Positions 21,943 to 35,715 of a stretch of DNA of 38,811 nucleotides are shown piece by piece; the first letter of the stretch is position 1, and every line of letters begins with the position of its first letter. This DNA comes from a virus, in the IMG/VR virus record IMGVR_UViG_3300009788_000193, positions 1 to 38,811 of that record; one strand, 5' to 3'. A program made the position numbers and the translations under genes. The notes under the pieces are model-generated. The model made no database searches, had not been told where the DNA came from, and saw only the letters and a list, made by a program, of their open reading frames with translations.

Positions 21943-22305
21943 CTATCCCCGGTTGGCGTCTTCGGTCTCGCTTTGCTTCGGCCTTAACAGTCGTCCCTTC
22001 GAATCTTTCAGGGTTCCCGCCTTGAGTTCGTCGAGGGCGCCTTTCAGACTACCGATTATTTCCTGCCCCACCTTGGTCTCACGTCCTTCGGCGCGGGCGA
22101 TGATAGCGTCGAGTTGCTCCTGTTCGCCTTTGTCGTAGTTTGGAGTGCAACCATATATTCTTATTAGACGAAGCATTCCTAGCATGTCCCCTGCCGCCGC
22201 GTGAAGCGGGCAAAGGTCGATCACCTCCTGTAATCGAACCGCCTCGCCATTTTCGTCGGTCGATTCTGACCAGCCTCGCAATTTGCAGTCTGTGCACGTC
22301 GCCAT
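21943..22305 (-). CDS. hypothetical Cys-containing phage protein
   Basis: A 120-residue protein. The first 35 residues carry CTDCK and a later CPLH motif, a small zinc-knuckle-like pattern, followed by a helical body (MLRLIRIYG, LDAIIARAEGRE, ALDELKAGTLKDSK). The start overlaps the preceding stop as TAATG and has GGAGG upstream. Function unknown. Confidence 0.65.
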   Translation of the reverse strand: MATCTDCKLRGWSESTDENGEAVRLQEVIDLCPLHAAAGDMLGMLRLIRIYGCTPNYDKGEQEQLDAIIARAEGRETKVGQEIIGSLKGALDELKAGTLKDSKGRLLRPKQSETEDANRG

Positions 22306-22769
22306 TAGTCCTCCTTAGGTTTCGCATCATCAATCGTCAACCGCGTAGCCGATTCGTCCGATTCCGGGCACACAATCTCACAGGGATCGCGGAAACTTGG
22401 CGGGCACATGACGTAGCAATCCTCTAGGAACTCCAAGAAGCCGTCTGTGTTGCCGTCTAAGCCATCTTCGCCGTCTAGGCCGTCAGAACCATCGGCGCCG
22501 TCAGTACCATCGGCTCCTGGGAGTCCATCGACTCCATCGGCTCCGTTGGCCCCATCAATACCATCCGCGCCCGGTGCCCCGTCAAGGCCGTTGGTCCCGT
22601 CAGCACCAGCCTCCGAGGACACCAGACGCGCAACGAATATGTCGCGGATTAGATCATCAGCGCCGCAACCCATCAGGCTCAATCCCGCACCACCGACAGC
22701 CGTTACCATCGCCAACTTGCCCAGCATCTTTGCGTACGCCCCGACCTTTTGTTGCATGTCTCTACTCAT
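22305..22769 (-). CDS. collagen-like lipoprotein
   Basis: A 154-residue protein with an N-terminal hydrophobic signal (KLAMVTAVGGAGLSLMGC) ending in an LMGC lipobox near residue 34. A tract of about 18 Gly-X-Y triplets (GADGTNGLDGAPGADG and similar, residues about 53-108) is rich in Asp and lacks the usual Pro content of collagen. The C-terminal 45 residues contain four cysteines. ATG 22769 has GGAG upstream. Collagen-like tracts form trimers; a phage-encoded trimeric surface lipoprotein could alter host surface or superinfection, which is inference. Confidence 0.75.
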   Translation of the reverse strand: MSRDMQQKVGAYAKMLGKLAMVTAVGGAGLSLMGCGADDLIRDIFVARLVSSEAGADGTNGLDGAPGADGIDGANGADGVDGLPGADGTDGADGSDGLDGEDGLDGNTDGFLEFLEDCYVMCPPSFRDPCEIVCPESDESATRLTIDDAKPKED

Positions 22770-22902
22770 CGTCAATTCTCCTATGGTTGTAACAATTTGG
22801 CCCCTACCGGGACTTCCAGCGAGCGTAATCGTTGCCACCGATGCTCTACTTCGCTGTGTCTGCCGGTTGAACGGCAATTCCTGCGGGGCTAGACAGGAAG
22901 TA
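22770..22902. other. 133-bp gap within the leftward operon
   Basis: Between the collagen-like lipoprotein gene and the next upstream gene I see only the GGAG ribosome-binding site (about 22775-22780). No small reading frame with a good start and no clear hairpin is visible. Confidence 0.4.
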
Positions 22903-23145
22903 TCAAATTTCCAATTCTGGCCATCCGGCCAATTCCTTACCATGCTCCCCTCGTAACTCGTTCACTCGATCACGCAACCAATCCAGCCTAGCGTCGCGTT
23001 CCTCGTCGTCCTCGATACGTTCTACCGTTTCATCTTCGTAGACCGCGTGGAAGCGTTCGGCATCCACGTAGAACTTGAACCCGCCAGCCACAATCGCCAT
23101 GATTGCCGTGGCGATGATGGGTAGGAGCCAAGCGGGGAATTTCAT
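22903..23145 (-). CDS. membrane-anchored coiled-coil protein (i-spanin-like)
   Basis: An 80-residue protein with an N-terminal membrane segment (FPAWLLPIIATAIMAIVAGG) and a highly charged helix afterwards (VERIEDDEERDARLDWLRDRVNELRGEHGKEL). This is the topology of inner-membrane spanins (Rz-like), which pair with an outer-membrane lipoprotein. A lipoprotein gene lies nearby at 20984-21307. Coupled to the upstream gene by ATGA. Spanin function is a topology-based suggestion. Confidence 0.6.
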   Translation of the reverse strand: MKFPAWLLPIIATAIMAIVAGGFKFYVDAERFHAVYEDETVERIEDDEERDARLDWLRDRVNELRGEHGKELAGWPELEI

Positions 23146-25953: not shown

Positions 25954-26116
25954 TTTTGCGATCTTTCGTTTTCGTCAGCATGTGCCAACCTATATAGTAA
26001 ACCAAGAGCCCAGCGTACACCCATGTAACGGCAACGTGGATATACGATAACCCGTAGCCAACAAGTGACATTCCTAAAACGGTAATCAATCCGCCCACGT
26101 GGTCAGTATTCGCCAT
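25946..26116 (-). CDS. 56-residue two-pass membrane protein
   Basis: Read directly from the minus strand: a 56-residue protein starting MANTDHVGGLITVLGMSLVG, with hydrophobic segments at about residues 9-22 and 30-44 and a basic tail KTKDRKSD. The ATG at 26116 shares its first base with the upstream stop (TGATG). Two-helix topology with a charged tail resembles small holins; no family match is claimed. Confidence 0.62.
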   Translation of the reverse strand: MANTDHVGGLITVLGMSLVGYGLSYIHVAVTWVYAGLLVYYIGWHMLTKTKDRKSD

Positions 26117-27162
26117 CAGTCATCATCCGGTGCGTTGTGGTCGTCATGATCGGGCTGGTCCACGATGCCATCCCGCATTGACATATCAGGGCCAGCCGCC
26201 ATATCGACCCCAATTTCATAGTTCGGCATTTCCATCGGCCACTTAATCGCAGCCGCTCGTATCATTGCGTTCGCACGAGCCACTTGTTGCTCCTGCATGT
26301 GGTTATCTTTTTCGCCCAAGACGGGATTCCTATCTGCCCATCCCGTAACCGCTAAGCGAGCCGCTTCCGGCCCTTCGTCAATCTTTTCCATGCCAGCGTG
26401 CATGGCGTTACCAATCCATAAGGCTTCCGAGTCTTCCCCTACGCCTTTTCGCAGCCGTCGCTCATGTGCCCAAAAGTAAATCATCTCGCACAAATGCAGA
26501 TCGCCAAGGGACGAATAGGTAATGATATTACCCTTACCCTCATCACCTAATTCTGGATGAGAGTTATCAAGTACGCGATAGCCCGAATCGATCAGCCATT
26601 CTACGTCAGCGCCGTTCTGGACGGCATCGCATAGTGGTATGTACTGGCACTCCCGTTCCCATGCGAAGCAGGCATGAGTATTGGGTATCCAGCGGTCGCA
26701 GCGTCGGTTTTCAAGGAGGCGGCGCGACGATTCCCACAGATACCATTCCGCCTGTTCGAGTTTGGCGGAATGGATCGGGTAATTGTGGGTTGTCATTTTA
26801 GCGGGATCACCCAAGAGCCATTTCAAACAACGGTTTTCGTACACTTCGGGTACTGGAAGGCCGGTCTCCTTCGATTCCTTTTCATCTTTAACGTACATTC
26901 GGATCGTCGGGCGGGCGATTAGGCGGTATTCTATCTCATCGATGGCCACGTTCGCCGCTTGTTTGGCCAAGGTGTATAGTTCGCCTTGATAGCCAATTCG
27001 GGATCGAGTGATAAACCTGTCAACCTTCGCTACTCCTTTCCAATCGATGATTTTGCTTTCCTCGACTCGATCGATCTTGCCCTTGAATCGGCATCGGGCT
27101 TCTACGCCGTTGTTAGGGTTGATGACGGCTAGGCTGATTATTTGCTCGGTTGATGTTTCCAC
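26116..27162 (-). CDS. PD-(D/E)XK nuclease (RecB/Cas4-like), circularly permuted
   Basis: A 348-residue DNA exonuclease of the RecB/AddB/Cas4 superfamily. Landmarks appear in a rotated order: GKID (D31), IIDWK (D40, K42), Q59-x3-Y63, the three C-terminal iron-sulfur cysteines C165/C172/C178, HPEL (202-205), and only then the normally N-terminal YSSL (216-219), C225 and G251-x3-H255, with a candidate E316 near the end. Normally YSSL...C...GxxxH comes first. All catalytic and cluster residues remain. It starts with GTG in a TAGTG overlap with the SSB-like gene. Together with SSB-like and Sak4-like genes it forms a recombination set. Confidence 0.85.
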   Translation of the reverse strand: METSTEQIISLAVINPNNGVEARCRFKGKIDRVEESKIIDWKGVAKVDRFITRSRIGYQGELYTLAKQAANVAIDEIEYRLIARPTIRMYVKDEKESKETGLPVPEVYENRCLKWLLGDPAKMTTHNYPIHSAKLEQAEWYLWESSRRLLENRRCDRWIPNTHACFAWERECQYIPLCDAVQNGADVEWLIDSGYRVLDNSHPELGDEGKGNIITYSSLGDLHLCEMIYFWAHERRLRKGVGEDSEALWIGNAMHAGMEKIDEGPEAARLAVTGWADRNPVLGEKDNHMQEQQVARANAMIRAAAIKWPMEMPNYEIGVDMAAGPDMSMRDGIVDQPDHDDHNAPDDD

Positions 27163-27623
27163 TAGAAAGGTATCTCATCCCCGGTTGGTGGTTGCGGTTC
27201 GACAAACTTACTTTGCGGACGAGGGGCGGGTTTGGGGGCGTCAATGGATTGCCATTCGATCACTTCCCCGTATTTTGGATCGCCTCTGGTTTGGCGAGCT
27301 ACTTCCACGCTAACAGTTTTGCCGACCATGACCTGATGCGATCTATCGATGTCGAGATCATAAGCCTTGAATTCTTTTTTTGATATACCGCAACATTTGA
27401 CAAAATGAGCCAGCCTTTTGGCGGCACCTTCTTCTTTTAGATTCGGACCCGTGAGCCAGAACATGATTTTCTGTTTGGCTTCACCAGCCTTGAGCGAAAA
27501 CTCCACGCCGCGATTGTCGTTGTTGGGGTTTGGCCTCATTTCCCAACCGTCGATCATCACATCGTGCCAACCATCGCGCAACCAACTCCCACCCTCGCCC
27601 TCGTAATCACTAAGGCTTCGCAT
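27162..27623 (-). CDS. SSB-like single-stranded DNA-binding protein
   Basis: A 153-residue protein with a beta-rich body (DGWHDVMIDGWEMRPNPNNDNRGVEFSLKAG, then KIMFWLTGPNLKEEGAAKRLAHFVKCCG) like DUF669/OB-fold phage SSBs. Strand KTVSVEVARQ comes before a Pro-rich linker and the C-terminal tip GDEIPF, which copies the acidic-hydrophobic tail that SSBs use to recruit partner enzymes. AAAGGA precedes the start. It lies between the nuclease and the Sak4-like ATPase. Confidence 0.82.
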   Translation of the reverse strand: MRSLSDYEGEGGSWLRDGWHDVMIDGWEMRPNPNNDNRGVEFSLKAGEAKQKIMFWLTGPNLKEEGAAKRLAHFVKCCGISKKEFKAYDLDIDRSHQVMVGKTVSVEVARQTRGDPKYGEVIEWQSIDAPKPAPRPQSKFVEPQPPTGDEIPF

Positions 27624-28380
27624 TCGCGTTTCCTTTCAGGATTTTGCTGAACAGTTTAGTCCAGTCGGTTTCTTCGTACGGATCGAGTGCGCCGCTTGAG
27701 TCTTTGGCAAGGATCTCGCCGTCGTTGAATGTTTGCCATTTCCGCTCGTTGTCATCGTTCACGCCCATGTGCAATACCAGATCGAAATGCGCAGGGCATT
27801 CTGTGGCAATCTTCCCCGGCAGGTTCGGCGTGCGGTACACGTCGCCGCCATGTTTGTCTTTGCTCCATGCCGATAGACACGTCATAATGATGTTGACATT
27901 AAGCCCGGTGAACGATGCAAGTAGATGGGCGATTTTGCTGCGGAACAAACCATAATCTTCTTGTGTTAGCTGCTTCTTGTATATCCCTACTGGCTCGTCT
28001 CTTTTGTTTCCAGTGCGCTCTCTTGTCAAAGAAACGCGCTCAACATTTACAATGTGCTCTACGCACAAATCGCTAATCTTACTGAGAGAATCGACAAACA
28101 GAACTCTTGTCCCTTTGACCTTGGATTTGATTTCCGCATCCTCAATCCCATCCGGGCGAGCGAACATCCGATAAATGATTTGTATGTCGTCCCAAGTATG
28201 AAACCGCAAAACAGGGTAGTCCTTGTAGCGTAGCGGCAGCGCGCCACGATCACCGATTGCCAGTAGTGTCCGGTCCTCCGGCAGCGTCAAGGCACTGGTT
28301 GTCTTCCCGATCCCGCTATCGCCATGTAGCAGGGCGGATATAGTGGTGAGGTGTTTGTCCTTAGTGCTGGTCAGTTTCAT
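27610..28380 (-). CDS. Sak4-like RecA-fold recombination ATPase
   Basis: A 256-residue P-loop ATPase. Walker A is GDSGIGKT (residues 20-27), Walker B is VLFVD (93-97), and the core continues with strand VNIIMTCLSAW and a GxIATECPAHFD sensor-like segment. Size and order match Sak4-type phage single-strand annealing proteins, which work with SSB and an exonuclease. Here both partners are immediately downstream. It overlaps neighbours by 14 and 20 bp. Confidence 0.84.
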   Translation of the reverse strand: MKLTSTKDKHLTTISALLHGDSGIGKTTSALTLPEDRTLLAIGDRGALPLRYKDYPVLRFHTWDDIQIIYRMFARPDGIEDAEIKSKVKGTRVLFVDSLSKISDLCVEHIVNVERVSLTRERTGNKRDEPVGIYKKQLTQEDYGLFRSKIAHLLASFTGLNVNIIMTCLSAWSKDKHGGDVYRTPNLPGKIATECPAHFDLVLHMGVNDDNERKWQTFNDGEILAKDSSGALDPYEETDWTKLFSKILKGNANAKP

Positions 28381-33963: not shown

Positions 33964-34033
33964 ACGAGCATGAAGCATCAAACTTTCCAATCCAAACCCG
34001 GCGTATCTTTGGGTGATGCTTCTGATGCGCCTT

Positions 34034-34063
34034 TATCCCCCGGCCCTGAAAAGCCGGGGGATA
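34034..34063 (+). other. 11-bp perfect hairpin in the replication leader
   Basis: TATCCCCCGGC (34034-34044) pairs with GCCGGGGGATA (34053-34063) around an 8-nt loop. It is followed by GGTTTTGGAGG, whose GGAGG is the ribosome-binding site for the next gene. With no real T tract it may be an attenuator or translation-control element. Confidence 0.65.
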
Positions 34064-34079
34064 GGTTTTGGAGGCTTGC

Positions 34080-34810
34080 ATGTCTTGGATAGTGATGCGT
34101 ACAGATTTAGCGGGAGATCCGTCCACCATATCAAATCGAACAGTCTCGACGTAGGCGTGTACGAAACCATCGGGATCTTGCATTGCCTCTGGTCGTGGAT
34201 TGACGCGCAGTCACACAATGGTCACGCTTTAGGTGTGACAAAAGTGAACATAGATCGACTTGTTGGTGTGACAGGGTTTGCAAGTGCGATCGAAAAGGCG
34301 GGCTGGTTGGTGGTCGAAAAGGACGGAATCACTATACCCAACTTCGACAACTGGATGTCCAAATCGGCCAAGAAGCGCCTTAAAGCGGCAAAACGCAAGC
34401 AAAAGCAACGGTCGAGCTTGTCACACATTGAGTGTGACAAAAGTGTGACCACAGTACAGAACATAACAGAACAAGTAAAAAATAACCCCCCTACCCCCCT
34501 TCGGGGGCATTCGTCGTGGGAAGAAATCGAAACCAAACTGAACGGATCGCCACTGAAAGAATCCCCCGAATTCAAGTTTGCATGGCGGTGTTGGGTGGTC
34601 TACCGAAAAGAACGGCGGAAACCACTCACTGCCAGTACCGTCACCAGACAAATCAAAAAACTGGCGGCCATGGGCGCGGACCAAGCCGTAGCCAGTATCG
34701 AACGGTCGATAGAGCAGGGTTGGACAGGACTATTCGACGAAACCAAACCATCTGCGGTCAAGCCGCCCGGACGGGTACAATCGAGGCCAGGAAAATATGC
34801 GGGGATGTGA
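34080..34810 (+). pseudogene. replication initiator-like protein, apparent one-base frameshift
   Basis: A phage replication protein (helicase-loader/organiser type). From ATG 34080, with GGAGG 5 nt upstream, the product begins MSWIVMRTDLAGDPSTIS, the usual N-terminus, then meets a stop at 34152-34154. The rest of the family pattern continues in the -1 frame: SLDVGVYETIGILHCLWSWID, then GFASAIEKAGWLV, IPNFDNWMSKSAKKR, a Lys/Arg-rich linker and, at the end, ASIERSIEQGWTGLFDE. The break lies around 34128-34140. A single missing base would restore about 243 residues. It could be a real mutation, a sequencing error, or an unusual programmed shift. The start of the long single frame (34013) gives an unrelated N-terminus. 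Confidence 0.8.
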
Positions 34811-34811
34811 T

Positions 34812-35123
34812 ATGCCAATGGTTGATGCCCATCGATGGCTAAAGGAAATGGATGCAATAGCAAATGATGGGAGATATAACAGGGTGCCAGTTGTTCTCTT
34901 GGCGCAATGCGTAACCGAAATCAAACGCTTGCGCGAGTTCATAAACACACAGGTTACGGTGTTAAACGCGACAGAAGATCTGCTGCAAGCAATTATGGCG
35001 CATTATAACGGATGGGACCCTGACGGCGATGTTGCGGATACAAAGAGGGTGTACGATGACCTGATTGACGAAGAAACAGCTAACTTGTGCGATGAGGCAG
35101 GGGATAACAATGCGGGTCAATAA
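34812..35123 (+). CDS. hypothetical helical protein
   Basis: A 103-residue protein, mostly helical (VDAHRWLKEMDAIAND, then LAQCVTEIKRLREFINTQV) with an acidic C-terminus (DGDVADTKRVYDDLIDEETANL). ATG 34812 immediately follows the initiator stop. It overlaps the helicase loader by 14 bp. May be a small partner of the replisome; unrecognised. Confidence 0.6.
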   Translation: MPMVDAHRWLKEMDAIANDGRYNRVPVVLLAQCVTEIKRLREFINTQVTVLNATEDLLQAIMAHYNGWDPDGDVADTKRVYDDLIDEETANLCDEAGDNNAGQ

Positions 35124-35715
35124 GGCAATCCAGAACATGCTCCAAAACGCAAAAACCGGGCGGGACGAAGGGTGTTGTAAGATCGAACGCCGGGAAGGAC
35201 GTTATAACCTCCCCGACAATTATCGTTCCCAAGCGTTTATCTGCGAGCATTTACGCAATACCATCCGATTGCTGATCACCGGACGTAAGCCGTGGCCATT
35301 GTTTCTTCACGGCGAAGCAGGAAGTGGCAAGACCTGCGCGGCCCTTTGTATGTTTGATTGGTGGGGTGGCCGCTACGCCGATTATCAAGATATGTGTGCC
35401 AATCTGCGCTTGGCCATGAAAGGCGAAGCGTATTCGTCAGGTGGGTATCGGATATTTGAGGCCGACATTTGGAGGCCGTGGACGAAAAGTAATCTAACGG
35501 TCCTAGACGACTTCGGCGCTAGGCAGCCAACCGATTTCCAATACGACGTACTCAAAAAGGCAATCGATACCCGCCATCAAAAACCGGCGGTGTTCATATC
35601 CAACCTGAACCTGGAGCAGATTGACGCCCTGTACGACGATCGCGTTGCTTCGCGTCTAAGCGCCGGAACGATTGTGGAGTTGAAAGGGGATAGGCGTGGG
35701 GAGAAAGTGCCTTAG
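35110..35715 (+). CDS. DnaC-like replicative helicase loader ATPase
   Basis: A 201-residue AAA+ ATPase of the DnaC/IstB type. Walker A is GEAGSGKT (residues 68-75), Walker B VLDDF (131-135), sensor-1 region VFISNLNLEQI, and an arginine-rich end DDRVASRLSAGTIVEL. The front part has CC and NLPDNYR like other loaders. It would load the host replicative helicase at the phage origin. The gene overlaps its upstream neighbour. Confidence 0.86.
   Translation: MRVNKAIQNMLQNAKTGRDEGCCKIERREGRYNLPDNYRSQAFICEHLRNTIRLLITGRKPWPLFLHGEAGSGKTCAALCMFDWWGGRYADYQDMCANLRLAMKGEAYSSGGYRIFEADIWRPWTKSNLTVLDDFGARQPTDFQYDVLKKAIDTRHQKPAVFISNLNLEQIDALYDDRVASRLSAGTIVELKGDRRGEKVP

Follow-up and report, generated by a model that had tools for sequence, protein, structure and literature searches.

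A naturally circularly permuted RecB/Cas4-like exonuclease family encoded near Sak4-like genes in phages

Introduction

Is a phage gene in which the motifs of a RecB/Cas4-like nuclease stand in swapped order a genuine circular permutant? This question is raised by the IMG/VR virus record IMGVR_UViG_3300009788_000193, of which the complete stretch of 38,811 nucleotides was analysed (referred to as the window in the following). The 38.8-kb record is that of a tailed phage, as it encodes a terminase large subunit, a replication initiation protein and a DnaC-like loader. The replication initiation protein is followed by the helicase loader at 34013-35715 on the plus strand, and a collagen-like repeat protein of the tail-fibre type, with numerous PHROG tail fibre matches, is encoded at 22305-22943 on the minus strand. 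The nuclease gene spans 26116-27162 on the minus strand and encodes 348 amino acids from a GTG start codon.

Results

Motif order in the window protein

In the canonical linear order of PF12705, the N-terminal half (A-half) precedes the C-terminal half (B-half). The window protein departs from this order and reads B-A. Its B-half (residues 4-183, 26614-27153, minus strand) comes first and harbors E6, the acidic residue ahead of GxxD, followed by GKID (residues 28-31, 27070-27081, minus strand) with the predicted metal-binding residue D31, by DWK (residues 40-42, 27037-27045, minus strand), which represents the (D/E)xK motif, by Q59xxxY63 (26974-26988, minus strand) and by C165, C172 and C178 (26629-26670, minus strand), the putative ligands of an Fe-S cluster. 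A linker with HPEL at residues 202-205 (residues 179-214, 26521-26628, minus strand) leads into the A-half (residues 203-260, 26383-26556, minus strand), which comes last and contains YSSL (residues 216-219), C225 and GNAMH (residues 251-255). The swapped order claimed in the original prediction, with GKID, DWK, QxxxY and three cysteines ahead of YSSL, a cysteine and GNAMH, was confirmed, and the motif positions given there were correct. The chain ends with a C-terminal extension (residues 262-348, 26119-26379, minus strand) of predicted helices up to residue ~306 and a disordered acidic tail.

Profile matches follow the same order. PF12705 matches the window protein (3e-11, 44.1 bits, cut-off 22) in two stretches, and residues 215-304 correspond to profile positions 3-99, i.e. 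the C-terminal part of the protein aligns to the start of the canonical profile. For phrog_1218 (364 positions, 2.1e-10), residues 209-267 correspond to profile positions 5-62, and both parts of this profile are matched, in two stretches, in the window as well as in the permuted proteins described below. No match to PF01930 (Cas4) was obtained in the window, and a sequence search of the PDB found nothing.

Conservation of catalytic and cysteine residues

Permuted relatives were obtained from two Acidobacteriota phage isolates (Tunturi_1 and Tunturi_2) and as 42 non-redundant complete IMG/VR proteins (n=44). Conservation was analyzed in an alignment of the window protein with 40 relatives (41 sequences), to which the window is 19-24% identical. 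In total 16 columns are invariant, among them E6, G28, D31, K42, Q59, Y63, C165, C172, C178, S217, C225, G251 and H255 of the window. D40 is conserved in more than 90% of the 41 sequences, with DHK as the family consensus of the DWK motif, and the PF12705 motifs GxxxH, E, GxxD, (D/E)xK and QxxxY were all found and are at least 90% conserved. The expectation that catalytic and cluster residues are retained was therefore borne out, as they are invariant or above 90% across all sequences including the window.

Judging from these residues, the protein is most likely active, and as an exonuclease it would most likely serve the adjacent Sak4/SSB-like recombination module. The very strong divergence of the window would suit a protein that has lost nuclease activity and merely binds DNA or acts as a structural partner of Sak4. 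However, E6, D31, K42, H255 and all four cysteines are invariant and D40 is kept, and since a decayed enzyme would likely drop some of these residues, such a loss is improbable.

Structure models

AlphaFold2 was used to model the window protein and the relative L041 as monomers. L041 was predicted as a compact single domain (pLDDT 93.9, pTM 0.88). The window model, for which the permuted family at 19-24% identity served as alignment, is of moderate confidence (pLDDT 78.1, pTM 0.71) and drops below a pLDDT of 50 at residues 307-338 and 340-346, in the disordered acidic tail after residue 306. In both models one domain was obtained and not two unrelated ones, in agreement with the single domain that had been anticipated. 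Foldseek neighbors of both models in the PDB were mostly PD-(D/E)XK nucleases (RecE, Cas4 SSO0001, MGME1 and AddAB) with weak E-values (best 1.7e-3), and the matches were partial, as would be expected of a sequential aligner that meets a permuted chain. The best BFVD match, A0A6J5NSY1, has the same order and was aligned over the full length (TM 0.77/0.79), and most other matches were partial.

An obligate domain-swapped dimer or oligomer, in which the B-half of one chain is complemented by the A-half of another, is open to any B-A chain, and the models considered here are monomeric. Nevertheless, the L041 monomer is compact and confidently predicted and the linker of ~35 residues is long enough for intramolecular closure, so that complementation between chains appears unlikely. 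Very probably, the window protein is a single-domain PD-(D/E)XK nuclease of the RecB/Cas4-like (PHROG 1218) type with a circularly permuted chain.

The permuted order in a family of phage proteins

With half-specific profiles, the order B-A was obtained for the window, whose A-half was matched by the A-profile with E=5e-8, and for 44/44 relatives, whereas the canonical proteins that were scorable for both halves (6/6; L079, P1201, Goodman, Olihed, Sparcetus and Theresita) gave A-B. Such a separate search of both halves with comparison of their order had been proposed as a check, and its outcome supports the circular permutation put forward in the original prediction. When PHROG 1218 was compared with 24 virus records, a single A-B match spanning the profile was found only in the record of L079, while the remaining 23 showed both halves in the order B-A in most cases and one half only in a few. 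BLASTP against L079 likewise gave the permuted order in each of the 37 proteins for which both halves could be aligned. Searches of phages with tblastn matched only the exonucleases of the Tunturiibacter phages Tunturi_1 and Tunturi_2, in which phrog_1218 positions 105-329 are located at residues 30-254 and the part equivalent to YSSL/GxxxH comes after.

From IMG/VR, 18 loci were gained by alignment of the junction and 55 by alignment of the family. Their ORFs are single genes of ~330-440 amino acids in the order B-A, except for L079, the truncated or frameshifted L077 and L078, and fragments at contig ends. In L077 (3376-4276), the permuted nuclease is broken by a frameshift and its B-half and A-half lie in separate frames. 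One copy of the permuted nuclease was also present on a Planctomycetaceae MAG contig. In a PF12705 search covering 17 records, no second PD-(D/E)XK gene of this kind was detected in the permuted phages examined.

Across the junction, the native-order family HMM is collinear with residues 104-260 of the window protein (63 bits), and the window carries the junction pattern B-linker-A of the subfamily, consisting of CCC, HxEL, (T/Y)xS and C. Two queries with the window alone found no close relatives of its protein in IMG/VR; the window protein is a divergent orphan member of the permuted family. It had been argued that an order standard for the family would speak against a permutation. B-A is indeed standard within its own subfamily, and the window is consequently a subfamily member and no unique event, but the canonical proteins of PHROG 1218 are A-B.

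The relation between both orders is visible in the canonical sister L079 (IMGVR_UViG_3300014208_000299, ~31% identical), which reads MESTRKVLTNSALSCFKCC...GSAYH...GGKID...CPNCCYFGLC...VNPEL. A family profile for which every protein was rotated at its HxEL before building matched L079 without interruption over 6-339 (164 bits). With the native-order HMM, the match to L079 breaks in two. The NPEL tail at the canonical C-terminus of L079 equals the linker of the permuted proteins, and the window linker is homologous to this tail according to the native HMM match and to VNPEL of L079. The assignment of HPEL to the C-terminal edge of the domain thus proved right, as L079 ends with ...GLCSS...VNPEL...

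Taken together, the B-A order represents a genuine circular permutation that arose naturally in a phage exonuclease of the RecB/Cas4-like type and is seen throughout the family. That pieces of two genes were joined by mis-assembly or frameshift is extremely improbable: the window contig is of unknown completeness and close relatives of this very gene were not found in IMG/VR, but the same order is present in 44 relatives from independent samples, including two complete phage isolates, the junction keeps the reading frame and is homologous, both gene ends overlap their neighbors, as had been claimed, in each case by one base (TAGTG at the 5' end with the upstream and TGATG at the 3' end with the downstream neighbor, each a stop/start overlap), and the separate-half order tests with their canonical control exclude an assembly error.

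Origin of the permutation

As the window and the family share the junction, they probably also share the event that joined the original ends. The chain ends of the window may have been opened elsewhere, since residues 280-306 could form the helix that would be expected ahead of E6; when this C-terminal helix was compared with the N-terminal helix of the family, the alignment was suggestive and not significant (p=0.23). One fusion with two opening sites, one behind the GxxxH helix (most family members) and one behind the next helix (the window), is a tentative and rather doubtful scenario. If true, duplication and trimming of the nuclease gene would have given more than one permutant, i.e. a natural permutant series of one enzyme.

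That the C-terminal tail of the window protein (E317...GIVD336) preserves the remains of another E/GxxD copy was considered and rejected by shuffling (p=0.71). A search in six frames for a residual A-half before or B-half after the gene, covering 1.5 kb in the relatives and 3 kb in the window, yielded no more than a frameshifted remnant in L077 and, in L061, a single match that was marginal. No long direct repeats were found around the nuclease gene in the window.

In the phylogenetic tree, the window groups with L075 (89/93) on a very long branch of 6.3 substitutions per column. The canonical L079 is located inside the permuted group, together with L061 (94/97), also on a very long branch, and a single permuted clade was not rejected by the AU test (p=0.19 with and 0.26 without the window). 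L061 (5785-7059) is itself a permuted member with a long N-terminal extension, in which DxK is changed to ExK (REIKT).

Neighboring recombination genes

On the minus strand of the window, the nuclease is the third gene of a run that starts with a Sak4-like RecA-type ATPase/ssDNA annealing protein (27610-28380, minus strand; phrog_124 7.6e-30, AAA_24 6.4e-16), followed by the upstream neighbor of the nuclease, a DUF669/single-strand-binding-like protein with weak matches (27162-27623, minus strand; PF05037 E=0.047, phrog_6015 E=0.038). In every locus examined, the window included, a Sak4 gene is located beside or near the permuted nuclease. Sak4 comes after the permuted gene in L028, L041, L042, L063, L070 and Tunturi_1/2, in the latter with one small ORF in between, and in some permuted loci an annotated or profile-supported SSB comes next after Sak4. 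The gene order Sak4, SSB-like protein, nuclease (from 28380 down to 27162, where the nuclease begins) is that of the window, while in the examined permuted relatives and in canonical L079 the nuclease is ahead of Sak4. In Tunturi_2 (L001:3692-4435), an annotated phosphoadenosine phosphosulfate reductase gene is located directly upstream of the permuted exonuclease; in Tunturi_1, none is annotated in the stretch shown.

Discussion

Proposed mechanism

In canonical nucleases of the Cas4/AddB type, one N-terminal and three C-terminal cysteines share a single cluster. As these cysteines meet in one cluster, the original chain ends are expected to be close together, and fusing them while opening a distant loop would therefore be tolerated and structurally easy via a short HxEL linker. 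In the permuted family, this linker would have joined the canonical N-terminus to the canonical C-terminus, right after the three-cysteine segment, and the chain would have been opened anew in the loop behind the GxxxH helix. In L079, the site that corresponds to this opening lies between HEGLDLLRTT and NDLDTALTAV of this loop, and the permuted proteins start with ...LDAAL. The permuted chain is predicted to fold to an ordinary active site formed by H255, E6, D31, D40 and K42, and C225, C165, C172 and C178 may together hold a cluster or another metal site, as suggested by their conservation. By resecting DNA, the nuclease could provide ssDNA for the Sak4-like annealing ATPase and the SSB-like protein, and a role as phage recombination exonuclease would be analogous to recombination of the Red/RecET type.

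Significance

A permuted RecB/Cas4 nuclease was not reported in the titles, abstracts or examined passages of the open-access papers searched, and an earlier mention, e.g. in superfamily surveys, is possible; the arrangement apparently has not been described before. Natural circular permutants of nucleases seem to be rare. Together with its canonical sister L079, the subfamily allows the effect of chain closure at the cluster, with opening at another place, on activity, processivity and pairing with Sak4 to be compared, and it is informative on how permutation by gene duplication proceeds. PHROG and Pfam show the permuted proteins as broken partial matches, and pipelines that rely on motif order or on coverage by a single stretch would overlook or truncate them.

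Comparison with known systems

The canonical exonucleases of PHROG 1218 (L079 and the annotated exonucleases of Corynebacterium phage P1201 and the Microbacterium phages Goodman and Sparcetus) contain the same motifs as the permuted family, in the order A-B instead of B-A. Further features common to L079 and the permuted proteins are the segments KPxI and RPExYxQRRxxPRLDSE and the tail xPEL, and in L079, too, a Sak4 gene comes next. The annotated exonucleases of Tunturi_1 and Tunturi_2 (XJP11549.1 and XOB77130.1) have the same permuted order, junction and cysteine pattern as the window protein, to which they are ~30% identical, and are followed by Sak4 and SSB genes. They differ in that their gene is located before Sak4 and not after it, and in that a helix which is perhaps at the C-terminus of the window protein is N-terminal. 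A0A6J5NSY1 of an uncultured Caudovirales phage, whose structure follows the permuted model sequentially over the full length, is 25% identical to L041, and its annotation ('PD-(D/E)XK nuclease superfamily') is at the superfamily level only. Cas4 and the RecB-family nucleases with four cysteines (SSO0001, the nuclease domain of AddB) have the PD-(D/E)XK core, GxxxH and the 1+3 cysteines in common with the permuted proteins, but are of canonical order, and the window lacks a Cas4 Pfam match. The 'Cas4-domain exonuclease' of PHROG 1990 (Nipunavirus, Vid5 and others) is found in a similar setting near Sak4 and DUF669 genes, but represents a separate PD-(D/E)XK family whose members are not detected by the profiles of the permuted family.
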